DNA of 64,000 nt from Alphaproteobacteria bacterium LSUCC0396 (lineage in GTDB: Bacteria; Pseudomonadota; Alphaproteobacteria; Puniceispirillales; Puniceispirillaceae), in NCBI GenBank assembly GCA_041228345.1, contig CP166131.1:1116001-1180000 (forward strand), given 5' to 3'. This document shows positions 54,076-63,717 of this stretch, piece by piece; the stretch's first letter is position 1; each line of letters starts with the position of its first letter. The notes under the pieces are model-generated. The model did not search any database and was not told where the DNA came from. It saw only the letters and a program-made list of their open reading frames with translations. The translations under genes were made by a program, and so were the position numbers.

Positions 54076-54103
54076 AAAAAAAACCGCCTCAAATGCGAGA
54101 CGG
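54076..54103 (-). terminator. Strong terminator downstream of the tRNA fragment
   Basis: On the minus strand CCGTCTC, a six-base loop and GAGGCGG form a seven-bp stem (one G-T pair) followed by eight T residues. It lies about 30 bases beyond the CCA end of the tRNA fragment, as a tRNA terminator would. Confidence 0.85.
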
Positions 54104-54133
54104 CTAGGTATCTAATATTAAATAAAATTATTT

Positions 54134-54154
54134 GGTTGCGGGGGCAGGATTTGT
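54134..54154 (-). other. 3' fragment of an initiator tRNA (fMet), putative attachment-site scar
   Basis: On the minus strand the 21 bases read CAAATCCTG then CCCCCGCAACCA. They match the T-loop end, T-stem 3' strand, acceptor 3' strand CCCCGCA, discriminator A and encoded CCA of alphaproteobacterial initiator tRNA; the A at position 72 is the mark of fMet. Directly upstream the sequence departs from any tRNA, so no complete gene is present. Such fragments arise when an integrative element enters a tRNA 3' end. The downstream terminator suggests this side keeps the native flank. Confidence 0.75.
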
Positions 54155-54273
54155 TCAAGACCCTACCATTAAAAAATGGGTTTGAGGTAATAAATGGGCG
54201 TGAAACCGCCGTTACTTGCACCTTAATTATGCAGTGATTTAATTAGCTATTTAACAGCCACCCAACCAATCAT

Positions 54274-54942
54274 TTAGTCAATGAAGGTAGCAAATTCATC
54301 AATCGACACCCGCGCCGAATGCACTCGATTGATTGGAGCCTCAGTATCTTCAAAGCCGATAGCAACGCCACATGCAAGCATCAAGTCGTCTGGCGCGCCG
54401 GTTGCTGCGCGTACATTTTTATGAAAAAACGTCCAGTAGCCCTGGGCACAGCTGGCAAGACCATGGTCTTCACATAACAGCATCAGGCTTTGTAAAAACA
54501 TGCCCAGATCCATCCACTGGCCATAGCTTAGGGAGCGGTCAATATATGCAAACACGCCAACCGGCGCATTAAACATCAGCGCATTTTTGGCAAATTGCGC
54601 TCGCCGGCCGGCCTTGTCTTCCCGTTCGATCCCAAGAACGCGGTAAATATCCTCGCCAATTGCAAAGCGCCGCGCATCAAATTCGGTTTTAAGTGGTTTT
54701 GGATAGACCGCATATTCAGGCGTCGACAGTGGCTTATTTTGAGCAATAGCCTCACGGGTATTGGCCTTCAGGCTAGCCAGCGCGTCCCCCGTCAATACAA
54801 ATAGCTGCCAAGGCTGCAAATTGCCATTCGACGGAGCGCGAGACGCCTGTTGAATAATTCTCCGCAACAATTGACTATCAACTGGTCGGTCCAGGAAAGA
54901 GCGGCAGGATTTGCGGTGCTGTAAGGCGTGTTCGACCGTCAT
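54274..54942 (-). CDS. Nitroreductase-family protein
   Basis: 222 residues from an ATG following a G-rich GTGGGG; an upstream start adds 15 residues. HRKSCRSFLDRPVDS near the N-terminus, QASRAPSNGNLQPWQLFVLTG and CEDHGLASCAQGYW are features of the general nitroreductase group (NfnB/YdjA-like). It uses FMN and reduces an unknown substrate. It lies upstream of the tRNA fragment and so on the putative island side. Confidence 0.87.
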   Translation of the reverse strand: MTVEHALQHRKSCRSFLDRPVDSQLLRRIIQQASRAPSNGNLQPWQLFVLTGDALASLKANTREAIAQNKPLSTPEYAVYPKPLKTEFDARRFAIGEDIYRVLGIEREDKAGRRAQFAKNALMFNAPVGVFAYIDRSLSYGQWMDLGMFLQSLMLLCEDHGLASCAQGYWTFFHKNVRAATGAPDDLMLACGVAIGFEDTEAPINRVHSARVSIDEFATFID

Positions 54943-55433
54943 TGTTAACCCCACTCTTCCTTTCTGTTTAGCCTTGTCATCAAACAACCGTGCTGCTTGT
55001 CAACATGCGATACCCTCTATCCAAACTGCTTCAATGCGGTTCCTGGTTTGGCGGCTTTTCCAAAATCAGGAAGCATCATCACGGATGCTCAATTGCTTGC
55101 AACAAGGCTGCAATTTCAAAGGAGTGAACCCGTGTCAGTAGCGCCTGTGCAAACAATGACCGAAAAACAGATAGCCGGCTAGAGGATAGAATTGAGATTT
55201 GAGCAGATGGTAAAGTTTTATGCTTGCCTTGTTTGATAGCTGACCCACCAAGAGCATCCTGACATTCTTAAAACCTATGAAAAATCAATGAAATACGCCT
55301 GAATTCACAAATAGTGCAATTTTTGCATCACATAAGAAATAATTTAGCTCTATATTGCACCAACTTTTTTAGATACCACTCTAGCGTATCCGATTTAACC
55401 CGCAAAACTCTTGTCTTATGGAAAGGTGAGGCC
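54943..55433. other. Intergenic region with palindrome and possible gene remnant
   Basis: About 490 bp. AAAGGAG followed by a GTG at 55133 opens a frame that stops after 16 codons, perhaps a decayed gene start. At 55315-55327 TGCAA-TTT-TTGCA forms a perfect palindrome, followed by a TATATT about 24 bp later, which could be the operator and promoter of the small gene to the right. Confidence 0.4.
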
Positions 55434-55613
55434 ATGTTGGAAACAAGCCAAGGAATTATCGCTGAGCTCGACAAGCATATGTTTCGCAAAAACCCGTCCG
55501 ACTTCCTGCGAGCGAAAGATGAAAAAGGTGAAATTGTCATGCGTAAACCTCAACCAGACTGCGGTTCCTTGAGACCGGGACTAATTGCAGTAAGAAAATA
55601 TATTTCACACTGA
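55434..55613 (+). CDS. Small hypothetical protein (59 residues)
   Basis: The ATG follows GGAAAGGTGAGGCC, a good ribosome site, and this start is preferred to one 40 codons upstream. The peptide, MLETSQGIIAELDKH to GLIAVRKYISH, is polar and charged, with no membrane segment or known motif. It lies behind a palindromic promoter-like region. It is probably expressed, but the function is unknown. Confidence 0.5.
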   Translation: MLETSQGIIAELDKHMFRKNPSDFLRAKDEKGEIVMRKPQPDCGSLRPGLIAVRKYISH

Positions 55614-56463: not shown

Positions 56464-57687
56464 TCAGCCTTGCCTAATAAAATCAAGGAATTTTGGCCGG
56501 ATATTGTTGCGCCACGCTTTACCACTAAAGATACCATAATGGCCGGCTCCTTCCTCGAGGATGTGGTGTTTTTGTGTATCAGGCAAACCGGTGAATAGCC
56601 CCAAAGCAGCTTTGCATTGACCAGGCGCTGAGATATCGTCACGTCCCCCCTCGATCACCAAAAGGCGAGTGGTGCGCACTGCCCCGATATCAAGTTTTTG
56701 CCCATGATGCACAAAATTATTGGTTGCAATGTCACGGTCCTTGAAAATGCGTTGGACTGTATCAAGGAAAAATTCGGCAGGCATATCCATTACCGCCAAA
56801 TATTCATTGTAAAAACTGTTATGCCGGTCGCCATCATGCGCAGTGCCATCTGATTCAGCACAAACCTGCCTCACAAAAGATTCGATATGCGTGGCGGCGT
56901 TCATGCTCATAAAAGCAGTTAACTGTAAAATGCCTGGGTAAACCAGGCGGCCGGCGCCAGCATACTGGCTGTCAATCGGCATGATTACCGTTGACTGTAA
57001 TTGCGGAATGTCAGTCTTGCCTGCATAATTAGACACCGCCGATGGGTTGGCGGCAGGGTCTACCGGCCCCCCCATCAAAGTCACTGATTTGGGCATCGCA
57101 GCCGGGTTGTCAAGTGCCAGACGTGCAGTAGCCGCGACGGTAAGTGGCGCTGGCTGGCAAATGGCGAGCACATTTGTTATTGGCCCCAGGTAAGTGATGA
57201 AGTCGACAATGTAATCCACGAAATCATCGAGGTTAAATGAACCAGCATTATTTGGCACATCGCGTGCATTTTTCCAGTCAGTAACATATACGTCGCAGTC
57301 AGGAACAAGGCTGGCCACCGTATTACGTGTCAGCGTGGCATAATGGCCTGACATAGGCGCTATGATCATAACAGTTTCAGCTGATTGTTTTTGCGAAGTA
57401 GTGGCAAATTTCGTCAGGGCGCAAAAAGCTCTATCGAGAATGATTTCTGGTTTGATGGGCCGGGATTCGCCTGATGTGGTCAATGCCTCGACCGACCATT
57501 CTGGTTTTGCATCCATTCGCTCCAGAGATTTTTCGGCGACTTTGGACCAGCCATTCATCAATGATCCAAATGGATGTAGGCGCGTGAGCCCAGGAGCTTG
57601 GTCAAACAAATGACTGAACTGGCTCGCAAACGCCTTCTGCAATTTGATAGAACTGTCCAAAAGCTGGTAGGATGGTATAGTATACAT
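56464..57687 (-). CDS. phaZ: Intracellular PHA depolymerase
   Basis: 407 residues of the alpha/beta hydrolase family. APMSGHYATLTRNTV and DVYVTDWKNARDVP lead to the nucleophile region AICQPAPLTVAATARL, where C177 takes the place of the lipase Ser, as in the Ralstonia PhaZa1 group. IEGGRDDISAPGQ and the C-terminal GAGHYGIFSGKAWRN supply the Asp and His. It depolymerises native intracellular polyhydroxybutyrate. It is divergent from phaC. Confidence 0.93.
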   Translation of the reverse strand: MYTIPSYQLLDSSIKLQKAFASQFSHLFDQAPGLTRLHPFGSLMNGWSKVAEKSLERMDAKPEWSVEALTTSGESRPIKPEIILDRAFCALTKFATTSQKQSAETVMIIAPMSGHYATLTRNTVASLVPDCDVYVTDWKNARDVPNNAGSFNLDDFVDYIVDFITYLGPITNVLAICQPAPLTVAATARLALDNPAAMPKSVTLMGGPVDPAANPSAVSNYAGKTDIPQLQSTVIMPIDSQYAGAGRLVYPGILQLTAFMSMNAATHIESFVRQVCAESDGTAHDGDRHNSFYNEYLAVMDMPAEFFLDTVQRIFKDRDIATNNFVHHGQKLDIGAVRTTRLLVIEGGRDDISAPGQCKAALGLFTGLPDTQKHHILEEGAGHYGIFSGKAWRNNIRPKFLDFIRQG

Positions 57688-57750
57688 AAATAATAGGTTC
57701 CAAAATTACATTAGGGACAGGCTCCCACATATTTGACCGAAAGAAAAGCG

Positions 57751-59526
57751 ATGTCTGATTACGATATGGCCGAATCGTCCCAGCTTGACGAGCTCAAAGA
57801 CAATTTTGAGAAAATTGATGCATTAACAAAGCGGCTGATTGTGATCATGGCGCGGCAAAAAGCCGAACAGCCAGAACAGTCAAATGCAAGCACCGAACTG
57901 TTTTTCAAGGCAGCATCAAGCTATTTTGCGCAGATGATGAACAACCCTGCCAAATTGATCGAAAGTCAGGTCCGATATTATAAAGCCTCAATTGAGGCCT
58001 GGTCTGATTTTCAAGCCTCGATGATGGGGGCCTCACAGGACGCAAAACCCAAGGACCGGCGTTTCCGCGACGGAGCGTGGCAAACCAACCCCTATTTTAG
58101 CATGATCAAACAGCAATATCTGCTGTCCAGCGAAGTGATTAAGGACTCGGTCGCTGAGATCGAGGGGTTGTCAGAGGGTGAAGCCCGACAAATTCAGTTT
58201 TTCTCACAACAACTGATCAATTTTCTGTCACCACAAAATTTCTTGGGAACAAATCCCGAAGCATTGAAACACGCGATTGAAACCCAGGGCAAATCGCTGG
58301 TTGAAGGGCTAGAAAATCTGGTGAGTGATCTGGAAAAAGGTGACGGTCAGCTGTCTGTATCATTGACCGATACCAATGCTTTCAAGGTTGGAGAAAATCT
58401 GGCTACATCTTCTGGTAGGGTGGTATTCCGCAATCGGCTGTTTGAGTTGATCCACTATCAGCCTAAAACCGAAACCGTGTTTGAACGGCCGTTGTTGATT
58501 GTGCCGCCATGTATCAACAAATTCTACATTCTAGATCTGACACCACAAAACAGCTTCATACAGTTTGCGCTGGCTGCTGGCCAAACGGTGTTTTTGATGT
58601 CATGGGTCAACCCGGATGGGACAATGGCCGATGTTGGTTTTGACGACTACATAACCGAAGGTGTGCAAACCGCACTGGAACAGGTGACCAGCATGACCGG
58701 TCAACCGCAGGCGAATGTGATTGGCTATTGTATCGGTGGGACATTGGTAGCGGTGGCGGCAGATTATTTGCAAAAAACCGGTCATTATCTTATCAATTCT
58801 GCAACCTTTTTTACCACTTTGACCGATTTTCATGATCCTGGCGAATTGGCAGTTTATACCGGTCCCGACTATTCCAAGAAAATTCATGATCGCATTGCCG
58901 AAAGTGGCGTTTTGGATGGCGCATTTTTGGCTCAGACTTTCAGTTTTTTGCGCTCAGGAGATTTGGTGTACGGCCCGGCGGTTCGGTCCTATCTGATGGG
59001 ACAAAAACCGCCGGTTATGGACTTGCTATATTGGAACAGCGACTCAACCAACTTGCCAGGGCGCATGGCGCGCGAATATCTTGACAATTTCTATCAGAAC
59101 AACCGTTTCGCGAGTGGAGCGCTGCGGCTCCTTGATACCGATCTGGCACTGGCAGATGTTGATATACCAATCTGTGCGGTCGCCACTGAAACGGATCATA
59201 TTGCACCCTGGCGTTCGTCTTTTGCCGGGATCAGCCAGACCAAGGGGTCAAAAACCTATATTTTGGGCGGAAGCGGGCATGTGGCCGGGATTATAAATCC
59301 ACCCAAATCTGGGAAATATTATTTCCGCATAGCAGATAATTTAACCAAATATGCAGCTGACACTTTCCTTGACCTACCAGTTACAGCCGGATCTTGGTGG
59401 CCAGCATGGGAGGCATGGGCGGCTGGCATGTCAGGAAATAAAATTATTTCAAACAATGTTTTAAACAATTTTGAATGGCCAGACTTAGGTCCTGCGCCAG
59501 GAGAATATGTGCAGCGCCACAGTTAA
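57751..59526 (+). CDS. phaC: Class I polyhydroxyalkanoate synthase
   Basis: 591 residues from the ATG after GAAAGAAAAGC; a TTG six codons earlier is less likely. It carries the PhaC N-terminal domain, the lipase-like box GYCIGG with nucleophile C327, WNSDSTNLPGRM, and the His in GGSGHVAGIINPP. The size fits class I synthases that use short-chain hydroxyacyl-CoA. It polymerises (R)-3-hydroxybutyryl-CoA onto the granule. First gene of phaC-P1-A-B-P2-R. Confidence 0.95.
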   Translation: MSDYDMAESSQLDELKDNFEKIDALTKRLIVIMARQKAEQPEQSNASTELFFKAASSYFAQMMNNPAKLIESQVRYYKASIEAWSDFQASMMGASQDAKPKDRRFRDGAWQTNPYFSMIKQQYLLSSEVIKDSVAEIEGLSEGEARQIQFFSQQLINFLSPQNFLGTNPEALKHAIETQGKSLVEGLENLVSDLEKGDGQLSVSLTDTNAFKVGENLATSSGRVVFRNRLFELIHYQPKTETVFERPLLIVPPCINKFYILDLTPQNSFIQFALAAGQTVFLMSWVNPDGTMADVGFDDYITEGVQTALEQVTSMTGQPQANVIGYCIGGTLVAVAADYLQKTGHYLINSATFFTTLTDFHDPGELAVYTGPDYSKKIHDRIAESGVLDGAFLAQTFSFLRSGDLVYGPAVRSYLMGQKPPVMDLLYWNSDSTNLPGRMAREYLDNFYQNNRFASGALRLLDTDLALADVDIPICAVATETDHIAPWRSSFAGISQTKGSKTYILGGSGHVAGIINPPKSGKYYFRIADNLTKYAADTFLDLPVTAGSWWPAWEAWAAGMSGNKIISNNVLNNFEWPDLGPAPGEYVQRHS

Positions 59527-59614: not shown

Positions 59615-59995
59615 ATGTTTACTTTTACTGACTATACCAAAGCGATGGAAAAATTCGTATCAGCCTCACCATTCGAGATGGCTGATAATCTAAAGCCATT
59701 CATTGATTATCAGACCAAGCTGTCACATGTTGCCTTTGACGCGGCTAAAAAGAATATCGAGATTGGTCAGACCTGGATGAACGAAACCATCGTAGCCCTT
59801 GAAGCTTTTGCCAAGCCTGTCGAAAAACCTGCAGATTTAGCAGCTGCCTCGACCGAATTTGCCAAAGCACAGGTTGAAGCGGCACCAAAGCATCTTGCGA
59901 GCATCGCTGAAGTTGCCAAAAAGGCGCAGGTTGATACAGCAGAGATCATGCTGAAAGCCGGCAAGGATGTCCAAAACAAGATCGTCAACGCTTAA
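59615..59995 (+). CDS. phaP: Phasin (granule-associated protein) PhaP1
   Basis: 126 residues, helical and amphipathic, of the phasin_2 type: MFTFTDYTKAMEKFVSASPF then KNIEIGQTWMNETIVALEAF. It coats PHA granules and controls their number and size. CAGGAGACGAACAC precedes the ATG. It lies behind its own strong promoter and is followed by a terminator, so it can be expressed at high level independently of the phaA-phaB genes. Confidence 0.9.
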   Translation: MFTFTDYTKAMEKFVSASPFEMADNLKPFIDYQTKLSHVAFDAAKKNIEIGQTWMNETIVALEAFAKPVEKPADLAAASTEFAKAQVEAAPKHLASIAEVAKKAQVDTAEIMLKAGKDVQNKIVNA

Positions 59996-60009
59996 CAGCA
60001 CGCGCGAGT

Positions 60010-60038
60010 AAAAAGGGGGCGCTCTGGCGCTCCTTTTT
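60010..60038 (+). terminator. Rho-independent terminator after phaP1
   Basis: AAAAAGG and GCGC pair with GCGC and CCTTTTT around a small loop, ending in TTTTTG. It isolates phaP1 from phaA. Confidence 0.85.
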
Positions 60039-60089
60039 GTATTTATCCAGCACTAAATCGCACATGGCCACGGGCCAACGGAGGGTATG

Positions 60090-61265
60090 ATGACAAATGT
60101 GGTTATTGCATCAGCAGCACGGACGCCAGTTGGCAGCTTTGGGGGCACCTTGTCGGGATTGCCGGCGCATGAACTTGGCAAAGCGGCAATCGAAGCGGTT
60201 GTTTCGCGTGCCGGAATCGAAAAGGCAGAAGTTTCAGAAACTATCATGGGCCAGATTTTGACTGCTGGCCAGGGGCAAAACCCAGCTCGTCAGGCGCACA
60301 TCAACGCTGGTTTGCCGCAAGAAAGCGCCGCATGGGGGATCAACCAGCTCTGTGGTTCGGGTTTGCGTGCGGTGGCGATTGGGGCCCAGCATGTGCAACT
60401 TGGGGATGCCGATGTTGTCATCGCCGGTGGCCAGGAAAGCATGTCATTAGCGCCACATGTTTCCATGTTGCGGACCGGGGCGCGCATGGGCAATTTGGCC
60501 TTTATCGACTCTATGATCATGGATGGGCTGACCGATGCTTTTCATGACTATCATATGGGCACAACCGCAGAAAACATTGCCACCAAGTGGCAGATCAGCC
60601 GCGACGAACAAGATGAATTCGCAGTTGCCTCGCAAAACAAGGCCGAGGCGGCCCAAAAGGCCAGTAAATTTGCTGATGAAATTACTCCAGTTCTGGTCAA
60701 AACGCGGCGAGACGAGGTCACTATCGACTGTGATGAATATATCAAACATGGCGTCGACATAGCAGCCCTGCAAAAATTGCGTCCAGCCTTTTCGAAGGAT
60801 GGCACTGTGACAGCTGGTAATGCATCGGGCATCAATGATGGTGCGGCCGCGGTATTGTTAATGAGCGAAGCTACCGCCACTGCTAAAAATATTCAGCCAA
60901 TGGCCCGGATCGTGTCTTATGCCACCGCTGGTGTTGACCCGGCGATTATGGGGATCGGACCAGTTACCGCGTCGCGCAAAGCCTTAGCCAAAGCTGGCTG
61001 GACGGTTGATGACCTTGACCTTATCGAGGCGAATGAAGCTTTTGCCGCACAGGCGATTGCTGTCAATCGCGATATGGGATGGGACCCTGCTAGGGTGAAT
61101 GTGAATGGCGGTGCGATTGCGATTGGCCACCCAATTGGGGCGTCTGGGGCCCGTGTTTTGAATACGTTGTTATTTGAAATGCAGCGGCAGAAAGCCCAGA
61201 AAGGCCTTGCTACTCTTTGTATCGGTGGTGGTATGGGTGTCGCCATGTGCATTGAACAGCTATAG
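60090..61265 (+). CDS. phaA: Acetyl-CoA C-acetyltransferase (beta-ketothiolase)
   Basis: 391 residues; two adjacent ATGs follow GGAGGG, and the second is preferred for spacing. The active Cys lies near residue 90 in [12 protein letters not shown]; the general-base His is in [14 protein letters not shown] and the second Cys in [12 protein letters not shown]. It condenses two acetyl-CoA to acetoacetyl-CoA, the first step of PHB synthesis. It is followed by phaB. Confidence 0.94.
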
Positions 61266-61321
61266 CTGTCAGCGCCAGAACTAACCCTAGCTGAGATCTT
61301 GTTAAGAAAGGAACGAACGTT

Positions 61322-62044
61322 ATGTCAAAGACCGCGATTGTGACAGGTGGAACCCGCGGCATCGGTGCCGCCATTTCAAGAATGTTGAAATCTGCCGGCT
61401 ACCAGGTAGCCGCCAACTATGCTGGCAACGACGACGCTGCCGCAGCTTTTGCCAAAGAGACCGGTATTGACGTGTTCAAATGGTCGGTCGCGTCTTATGA
61501 GGATTGTGACGCCGGTGTTGCAGCGGTTGAAGCCAAATTGGGCCCAGTTGATGTGCTGGTAAACAATGCCGGCATCACCCGAGACAGCGCCTTCCATAAA
61601 ATGACTCCCCAGCAATGGCATGATGTTATCGACACCAATCTTAATGGCCTGTTTAACATGACACACCAGGTTTGGGGTGGTATGCGCGATCGTAATTTTG
61701 GCCGCATAGTGAATATTTCATCGATCAATGGGCAAAAGGGCCAGTTTGGTCAGGCCAATTATTCATCGGCCAAAGCGGGCGATCTTGGCTTTACCAAAGC
61801 CTTGGCCCAAGAAGGTGCGGCTAAGGGAATAACAGTCAATGCGGTTTGCCCCGGCTATATTGGTACCGAAATGGTTAATGCGATGGCGGATGAGGTCATT
61901 GCCAAAATCACCGCACAGATCCCGGTTGGCCGGCTAGGTTCACCAGATGAAATTGCCCGCTGTGTATTGTTTCTTGTGAGTGATGATGCGGCCTTTATCA
62001 CCGGGTCAACCTTGTCGGCGAATGGCGGACAGTTTTTTGTCTGA
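61322..62044 (+). CDS. phaB: Acetoacetyl-CoA reductase
   Basis: 240 residues of the short-chain dehydrogenase family. TGGTRGIGAAIS is the cofactor motif and the Ser-Tyr-Lys centre is in SSINGQKGQFGQANYSSAKAG. It reduces acetoacetyl-CoA to (R)-3-hydroxybutyryl-CoA with NADPH, the monomer of PhaC. AAAGGAACGAACGTT precedes the ATG. Confidence 0.94.
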   Translation: MSKTAIVTGGTRGIGAAISRMLKSAGYQVAANYAGNDDAAAAFAKETGIDVFKWSVASYEDCDAGVAAVEAKLGPVDVLVNNAGITRDSAFHKMTPQQWHDVIDTNLNGLFNMTHQVWGGMRDRNFGRIVNISSINGQKGQFGQANYSSAKAGDLGFTKALAQEGAAKGITVNAVCPGYIGTEMVNAMADEVIAKITAQIPVGRLGSPDEIARCVLFLVSDDAAFITGSTLSANGGQFFV

Positions 62045-62095
62045 TCAACGTCGTGGTTATCGCTAGTGATTGAATTACATAAAGGAGACTGAGCT

Positions 62096-62599
62096 ATGTT
62101 CCATCCTGATGATTACAAAAAAGCCCTTGATAAAATGGGTGCTACCACACCCGCAGATATAGCTGAAGCTATGAAGCCAGTTCTCGACTATCAGGCTAAA
62201 TTGTCCAAAATCACCCTTGATGCGACAAAAAAGCATTTAGCCGTCGGACAAGCGATGGTTAACGAAACGATGGAGGCACTTGACCGTCTTGCTAAAACGG
62301 CCCCCGCAGCAACCGACATGGCAGCTGCGTCAAGCGAATTTGCCGCTGAACAGACTAAAGCGATGCCGAAGCATATGTCAGCTTTTGTCGATATCGCCAA
62401 GTCTGCGCAGGCTGAGACCATAGATGCGATGGTATCTCTGGGGCAAGAAGCCGTGGCTACAGGTAACGTTTCGGACAGCTCCAAAAAAGAGACTAAGTCT
62501 AAAAGTATTATTACACCTGTTTCTACCCGAACCGATAATGATACTGCGGCGATGGCTAGTATCAAAAAGGATGTAATGGCCAAGGCTGCCAAGAAGTAG
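62096..62599 (+). CDS. phaP: Second phasin PhaP2
   Basis: 167 residues. The N-terminal 110 are homologous to PhaP1 (YKKALDKMGATTPADIAEA, LDYQAKLSKITLDATKKH), followed by a Ser/Lys-rich tail (SDSSKKETKSKSI to MAKAAKK) absent in PhaP1. The basic tail could bind nucleoid DNA or PHA-associated proteins, like PhaM-type phasins; that is inference. AAAGGAGACTGAGCT is the ribosome site. Confidence 0.88.
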   Translation: MFHPDDYKKALDKMGATTPADIAEAMKPVLDYQAKLSKITLDATKKHLAVGQAMVNETMEALDRLAKTAPAATDMAAASSEFAAEQTKAMPKHMSAFVDIAKSAQAETIDAMVSLGQEAVATGNVSDSSKKETKSKSIITPVSTRTDNDTAAMASIKKDVMAKAAKK

Positions 62600-62619
62600 T
62601 CTGGTCATTGCATGTAATT

Positions 62620-62654
62620 GTGTAAAAAAGAGGTGGGATTTACACTTCTTTTTT
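62620..62654 (+). terminator. Terminator between phaP2 and phaR
   Basis: GTGTAAA and TTTACAC form a stem, followed by TTCTTTTTT. An alternative pairing of the A-run/GAGGTG with CACTTCTTTTTT is also possible. It stops transcription after phaP2 and leaves phaR with its own short upstream region. Confidence 0.75.
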
Positions 62655-62690
62655 GCTTGAATACCTACCTGCAGGATTTAGGAGATTTTG

Positions 62691-63338
62691 ATGAACGAAA
62701 CTGACAAGCCAAGTCTGACGATTCATCGTTATTCGAGCCGTAAATTCTATACCAAAGATACCAAAGAATTTGTCACACTAGATGATATCAGTAGATTAAT
62801 AAGGGCTGGACATTCGGTCACTATACTAGACAAGAAAACTGGAGAAGACATCACCAATCAATATTTGCTGACGATTATTTCTGAATTTGAAGGGCAAGGT
62901 GAACAAGTCATTCCTAAGGATTTTCTGACTGAAATTATTAAATGCTATAGTGATACGGCGACTCAAGTATGGCCAAGAGCCATCGAGCAGATGATGCAGG
63001 CCTACCAGAAAAACCAGCAAGATATGACTAGAGCATTTGCAGCGGTATCGCTTGACCCAACAAATCCCGATAAAAATCTTGATGCGCTGAAAAACCTGCA
63101 ATTGATGCAATCAAAAATGGTGGCAGGAATGCTACAATCATGGCAGGACTTTGGCTCAGCGCCATCCAGTTCGCCGCCAGCCAACAAAAATTCAACACCG
63201 CATGATTCGAGTCCGAACGCACAAAGTGCCAGTCCAAGCACATCATCTTCAGCACCAGCAGACATTGATCTTGAGTCCATGAAGGAGCAGGTCACAGCAC
63301 TGCAAAAACAGTTGGCTGCGCTATCAAAGAAAATATGA
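62691..63338 (+). CDS. phaR: Polyhydroxyalkanoate synthesis repressor PhaR
   Basis: 215 residues from the ATG after GGAGATTTTG. The N-terminal DNA-binding domain (IHRYSSRKFYTKDTKEFVTL, DDISRLIRAGHSV, TNQYLLTIISEFE) is diagnostic, followed by a PHB-binding helical domain and a long Ser/Pro/Ala-rich linker (about 150-190) with a coiled-coil end. PhaR represses phasin genes until polymer titrates it. CCTGCAGG 12-20 bp upstream could be an autoregulatory site. Confidence 0.93.
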   Translation: MNETDKPSLTIHRYSSRKFYTKDTKEFVTLDDISRLIRAGHSVTILDKKTGEDITNQYLLTIISEFEGQGEQVIPKDFLTEIIKCYSDTATQVWPRAIEQMMQAYQKNQQDMTRAFAAVSLDPTNPDKNLDALKNLQLMQSKMVAGMLQSWQDFGSAPSSSPPANKNSTPHDSSPNAQSASPSTSSSAPADIDLESMKEQVTALQKQLAALSKKI

Positions 63339-63717
63339 TTTTCAGCTAACACATCAAAATGTGCGCACCTGTGCTGATACTTTTACGTCACAAAAACGAA
63401 CTTTCCCAAGCTGAACGCGAGGGATGCATACAGAGATTGTTGCGGGGCACGCCGCCACAGTTATTTACATTTTGATTTTACGGCATTTTAGGAATGAATT
63501 ACGTTTAACAACAATGTTTTCTGAAGGCTCCAAAATTCTAACTTAAGTACTCGCAACCTTTAAATATGTTATCCGAATAATCAATCTAACACAGTCTGTC
63601 TCTGAGAATAACTCACAACAACTGTCATCGGGCGGTAGTTATCAGGGATGTCTTAAAAGAGGCCCGTAACAACTTTAAAGCTTGAGCGTCAGTTTATTAG
63701 TTTGAGCATTCACAGTT
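63339..63717. other. Intergenic region, 379 bp
   Basis: Convergent 3' ends of phaR and the Ldh-family gene. No small gene or array was found. A weak inverted repeat near 63343-63380 (CAGC with GCTG) might aid phaR termination, but its T-run is poor. Confidence 0.4.

Follow-up and report, generated by a model that had tools for sequence, protein, structure and literature searches.

The locus and its question

How does the 3′ end of an initiator tRNA gene come to lie by itself, followed by a terminator and with no tRNA body, beside a nitroreductase gene in a marine bacterium of the SAR116 group? The window, that is, the whole 64-kb stretch of DNA analysed here, spans C1:1116001-1180000 of LSUCC0396 (G000), a complete single-contig genome of 2.59 Mb; coordinates prefixed C1 are chromosomal and the others are counted within the window. 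A reading made from the sequence alone had taken the fragment for the scar of an integration into a tRNA gene, with the inserted DNA lying to its right. We regard the fragment as very probably a recombined attachment site, an attR-type scar that marks where an additive genomic island ends on its distal side. That island, an array of about 100 kb (a 104-kb region), was in all likelihood built by repeated site-specific insertion at the initiator-tRNA 3′ end.

The scar and its cassette

The core of the scar, CAAATCCTGCCCCCGCAACCA, is identical to the initiator tRNA from the T-loop, where the fMet homology begins, to the CCA, A72 included, and no match to this 21-nt sequence at three or fewer mismatches was found in 100 shuffles. 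Neither ARAGORN nor Rfam finds a tRNA body anywhere in the window, making this an exact copy of a tRNA 3′ end without its body, although its orientation relative to an intact gene is seen only in relatives that hold an intact fMet. The terminator starts 28 nt past the CCA with a stem that runs from 54105 to 54082 and ends in T8, and it is stable (−13.4 kcal/mol, z −3.6, with 0 of 200 shuffles equally stable). On all three points (the exact last 21 bases with CCA and A72, the strong terminator about 30 bases further on, and the missing body) the sequence-only reading is borne out. Two element-end motifs, one of each of two types, precede the core (Table 1), and both are found again at other places.

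Scars flank the nitroreductase, the small ORF and the whole PHA locus on both sides, and these genes therefore form one segment, a cassette of 9.3 kb. The second scar is decayed, and its alignment to the 1259-kb junction scores 35, against a maximum of 17 in 60 shuffled windows. It closes the cassette in line with the earlier guess, in which the nitroreductase, the small genes and perhaps the PHA locus were placed in the island. The PHA synthase has a 99% identical counterpart in the relative G002 and was not found in most genus-mates. Its absence from the sister genome G008 was considered as evidence and set aside because of an assembly gap, the contigs ending inside the PHA locus (at the G000 equivalents of 1172638 and 1178681). 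A truncated copy of the nitroreductase gene lies in another cassette (C1:1234787-1235218, 94% identical over 395 bp), which suggests duplication or recombination inside the array.

Table 1. Features of the window (window coordinates) and junctions of the array (C1 coordinates).
Feature	Position	Strand	Basis or remark
Attachment-site core, scar 1: exact 3′-terminal 21 nt of initiator tRNA	54133..54153	−	Pattern search; fMet in relatives
Intrinsic terminator, type A	54082..54105	−	Also after scars C1:1198110 and C1:1273652
Type-1 element-end arm GTAGGGTCTTGA (..CCCATTTTTTAATGGTAGGGTCTTGAA)	54154..54185	−	Recurs at fMet cores of G000 and of 9 further genomes
Type-2 element-end motif AAGGTGCAAGTAACGGCGG (GCATAATTAAGGTGCAAGTAACGGCGGTTTCACGCCC)	54196..54232	−	Recurs elsewhere
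Nitroreductase (PF00881), cargo at distal edge	54274..54987	−	Pfam
Small ORF, 99 aa, no assigned function, same cassette	55314..55613	+	
PHB depolymerase (PF06850)	56464..57687	−	Pfam
PHA synthase, phaC	57733..59526	+	Pfam; G002 protein
Phasin, thiolase (phaA-like), SDR reductase (phaB-like), unmatched ORF (62096-62599), phaR	59615..63338	+	Pfam
Second scar, decayed: type-2 end, GCCCCGCAACAA, type-B terminator remnant	63392..63479	−	Just after phaR
Junction (window scar)	C1:1170133	−	
Junction	C1:1179436-1179479	−	
Junction	C1:1198110	−	
Junction	C1:1214290	−	
Junction	C1:1242782	−	
Junction	C1:1259350 with 1259286	−	
Junction	C1:1262714	−	
Junction	C1:1267018	−	
Junction	C1:1273652	−	

An array of junctions on one strand

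The core, searched genome-wide at up to two mismatches, matches at five places. Every match is on the minus strand, and together they fall between 1170 and 1274 kb; the reversed pattern, run through the same genome-wide search as a control, has none. Together with sites recovered through their arms, these matches give nine junctions (Table 1), so that several tRNA 3′-end repeats bound segments of different content. The single island of the sequence-only reading thus becomes a multi-layer array of about nine scars, and its placing of the inserted DNA agrees with the further sites, which lie rightward in the same orientation. All eight junctions tested are intergenic, though about 91% of the region is coding.

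The junctions are of three types. In type 1 the arm GTAGGGTCTTGA precedes the 21-nt core. In type 2, AAGGTGCAAGTAACGGCGGTTGCG precedes CGCCCCCGCAACCA, and the core is thereby framed by an inverted repeat, GGTTGCG/CGCAACC. Type 3 is the fMet 3′ half, starting at the anticodon stem. Some cores have on their far side ACAAGACCCTACA, which is the type-1 arm in reverse complement, and the two may be the two arms of one recombination site. Similar sequences occur beyond the array. A type-1-like fMet core, GAGCTTGAGTAAATCCTGCCCCCGCAATCC, lies far outside it at C1:437172-437207 on the plus strand (L021), where its neighbours are a small ORF (..GIEWRFGPDWPGQRCGAKTRRGTACQRP..) and the 3′ end, now decayed, of a different tRNA; the family of this small ORF also has truncated members beside type-2 ends in G015 (L206) and G037 (L207). 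Type-1 fMet junctions are also present in NYYT01000105.1 (L149, labelled Pedosphaera) and NZSE01000060.1 (L150, labelled Rhodobacteraceae), which are probably mis-binned contigs of the same order as G000.

The junctions run towards a masked stretch of 7.5 kb, C1:1287501-1295000. A tRNA search of G000 returns 37 tRNA genes and one truncated fMet piece, and outside the masked stretch the genome has no intact fMet, tRNA-Ile(GAT) or 5S rRNA. The intact fMet of relatives stands directly behind the 23S and/or the 5S rRNA (G042, G038, G044, G059), and in G030 a mask starts within fMet itself. Considering these missing genes, the 23S–5S–fMet order of the relatives and the mask in G030, the most likely content of the masked stretch is the rRNA operon with the intact fMet, 14 kb past the last scar. 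True absence of the fMet gene from the organism was an idea dropped once the masked stretch had been noticed. In all four relatives whose contigs hold both (G042, G057, G038, G059), the scars lie downstream of the intact fMet and in the same orientation. The earlier expectation of an intact tRNA beyond the window to the right hence stands as to direction, by the gene order of the relatives, and the fMet of G000 itself would lie behind the mask.

Exchange of cassettes between species

Comparison of relatives at the junction, which the sequence-only reading had put forward as a check, returns three different states at the window scar. G000 carries an extra 64-bp type-1 piece; G008 keeps the nitroreductase and has a simple type-2 junction without that piece, its type-2 motif directly abutting CCCGCAACCA; and in G004, where the nitroreductase is missing from this place, the DNA is unrelated as far as the common terminator. 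G000 and G008 are 84-97% identical to the left of this scar and 97-99.5% identical over 1178.7-1187.7 kb. The relatives are mostly draft assemblies.

Segments are gained and lost as units. The 6.6-kb cassette C1:1267018-1273672, which encodes an FAD oxidase, a TctABC-type transporter and an aminotransferase-domain regulator-like protein, differs from its counterpart in G002 at 36 of 6657 alignment columns from core to core (99.46% identity), and divergence is immediate past the core. The syntenic chromosome around tRNA-Met is, by comparison, 74% identical between the two genomes. For the cassette that ends at C1:1198110, identity is 99.3% with G002 and 98.2% with G008, and the same end core is joined to three different neighbours: in G000 a sulfatase cassette, in G002 DNA that matches the G000 segment beyond 1259346 at 95.9% identity, and in G008 a double type-1 end. 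Such near-identical cassettes in chromosomes that are otherwise 74% identical show recent transfer between species; G002 is a draft metagenome assembly whose high-identity contigs are possibly mis-binned, but its informative junction breakpoints lie within single contigs.

Cargo, integrases and viral contigs

Pfam annotation of 30 ORFs of the array gives enzymes, several of them sulfatases, regulators, and transporters of the TRAP, tripartite tricarboxylate and ABC kinds, the other ORFs of the 30 being unmatched; none of the 30 matches a phage or conjugative gene, and with no integrase detected in the array either, the features of an intact prophage or ICE are lacking among the genes so annotated. 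One array cassette carries an MttB-family methyltransferase gene (PF06253; C1:1186274-1187827, L015:1274-2827), probably a non-pyrrolysine MttB, with a borderline Rfam PYLIS_3 match (39 vs 38 bits).

No tyrosine integrase (PF00589) was detected in C1:1165000-1305000, and no serine recombinase was found in G000, G002 or G008. An integrase, which the sequence-only reading had named as a thing to look for beside the right-hand fMet, is missing from the 100 kb to the right of the scar; the nearest one in G000 is XerC/D-like and 146 kb from it. In G059, two tyrosine integrases lie within the island between fMet and scar, with cargo resembling a TRAP transporter operon, and G019 has a tyrosine integrase near a scar. 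Elsewhere in G000, many integrase genes stand beside tRNA genes, namely those for Pro (346044), Gly (423436), Leu (560775 and 2526446), Arg (1599177), Thr (1636341) and Phe (1882292), so that tRNA-targeted islands are common in this genome.

Integration at fMet had been thought infrequent; this does not hold, as an exact copy of the fMet 3′ half is present in at least 120 viral contigs. Among the 80 listed, 61 have no tRNA body, and an integrase lies within 1.5 kb in 40 of these 61. In IMGVR_UViG_3300030380_005100, one of the fMet-targeting IMG/VR contigs, the attachment site consists of the fMet 3′ half, CCA and a terminator. A tyrosine integrase lies about 0.9 kb from this site, whose arms match junction C1:1267018. 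Viral contig L287 encodes an endolysin, Erf, SSB and an integrase, and its attachment site (TTTGCGATACATTTGCGAC..AGAAAACCTGACATTTCGTCAGGCTCATAACC..CCA and terminator) is closely like the C1:1267018 end; at C1:1262714, the repeats GGCGCTATGG and a terminator resemble viral contig L238. One 45-kb viral contig has the fMet 3′ half followed by the arm CAAGACCCTAC, without an integrase in the 5 kb examined. Type-1 or type-2 ends, the kinds present at the window scar, are carried by none of the viral contigs searched; this, and the lack of a detected integrase in the array, weigh against the model of serial insertion set out below.

A model of serial insertion and its alternatives

In the model that we favour, the target would be the initiator tRNA gene downstream of the rRNA operon, with insertion into its 3′ end. 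Each incoming element would bring its own fMet 3′ end and then a terminator, so that the tRNA gene would be restored at every insertion, and the displaced 3′ end would persist as a scar beyond the inserted DNA, on the side away from the tRNA. Repeated events would leave scars all in one orientation, the oldest farthest from the tRNA. The segments between the scars are catabolic operons with their transporters and regulators, among them, in the window, the nitroreductase and PHA-storage cassette. Some cassettes have been swapped between species, and the joints with their new neighbours fall exactly on the cores. As the attachment sites of viral contigs end in CCA and a terminator, the terminators that follow the CCA in the array would be the incoming element's own tail. 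We infer that the agents were tyrosine integrases of temperate phages or satellites, acting in cis before their loss or in trans. It is conceivable, though we hold it only tentatively, that the fMet array is an integrase-free cassette platform whose catabolic cassettes have functional attachment ends and are put in, cut out and rearranged by integrases supplied in trans by phages or satellites that target fMet.

Two readings that dispense with recombination can be set against this model. One is that the 21-mer with its terminator is a recurrent terminator or REP-like unit, repeated by chance or for some function; the recurrence of type-A terminators and of the AAGGTGCAAGTAACGGCGG motif speaks for it, but the common part stops at the CCA at every site whatever its depth into fMet (14, 21, 48 or 53 nt), all copies share one strand and a single 104-kb region, and it is at the core that homology between genomes is lost, which renders this reading extremely improbable. 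Hardly any more credible is duplication of the tRNA gene followed by decay, by which the fragments would be degraded extra fMet copies. It could account for the two sites that retain fMet from the anticodon stem to the CCA, but the fMet 5′ half is found at none of the sites, what lies upstream is the common element-end arm and not decayed tRNA, and both 3′ halves resemble viral attachment sites, at C1:1267018 in their arms too. The same-strand junctions, and the cassette exchange that ends at cores, instead favour the integration scar that the sequence-only reading had proposed.

A third reading accepts the scars as old and holds that site-specific recombination has ceased, the present exchange being ordinary homologous recombination (transformation, gene transfer agent or phage transduction) through common flanking cassettes of arrays in different species. 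It fits the lack of a detectable integrase in the array of G000 and in the examined stretches of G002 and G008, and also the G002 phaC block, which ends inside the nitroreductase gene (C1:1170919) and not at a core. Random endpoints would then be expected, but two exchanged blocks stop at a core, and the DNA directly beyond it is not homologous. We consider ongoing exchange by homology possible but unlikely, and retain serial site-specific insertion as the origin of the array.

Relation to known systems

Among published systems, two come closest: the ssrA islands of Dehalococcoides (PMC3146451) and the tRNA-Lys island of Methylophilaceae (PMC10872708). The former lie in tandem over up to 100 kb downstream of the RNA gene, bounded by 20-bp repeats of its 3′ end with a conserved motif just upstream of each repeat and insertion in the T-loop; 15 are without an integration module and 16 keep a serine-recombinase module (PMC3146451). 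The array shares the tandem islands, the 3′-end repeats, the upstream motif, the T-loop and the segments without an integration module. It differs in its target, which is the initiator tRNA and not tmRNA, and in that no serine recombinase was found, the fMet-site recombinases seen in relatives being tyrosine integrases. fGI-2 of Methylophilaceae is an additive flexible genomic island at tRNA-Lys with mostly genes of unknown function (PMC10872708), unlike the sampled cassettes here, which are catabolic operons, transporters and regulators. Tycheposons, as outlined in PMC10872708, are tRNA-bordered cargo elements of marine bacteria with metabolic genes and a tyrosine recombinase; the tRNA border and the metabolic cargo recur here, and the element-encoded tyrosine recombinase does not, none having been found in C1:1165000-1305000. 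The fMet-targeting IMG/VR contigs carry phage genes (endolysin, Erf, SSB) and not the catabolic cargo of the array. The supply of integrases in trans would liken the array to integrase-less integron cassette arrays, which depend on a helper integrase.

Since it has the tested features of that class and lacks the recombinase of tycheposons, the array is an additive flexible genomic island formed by serial tRNA-gene integration, and so belongs to a known kind, met here at a new place. No published description of an fMet array in SAR116 was found in the literature searched, which is not proof of absence.

What the array means for this bacterium is that the gain of whole catabolic pathways by a member of the SAR116 group has left a readable record, in which each scar bounds one acquisition to the base. 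It also makes testable whether phages that share this tRNA target can, through their integrases, mobilise cargo that has no integrase of its own.
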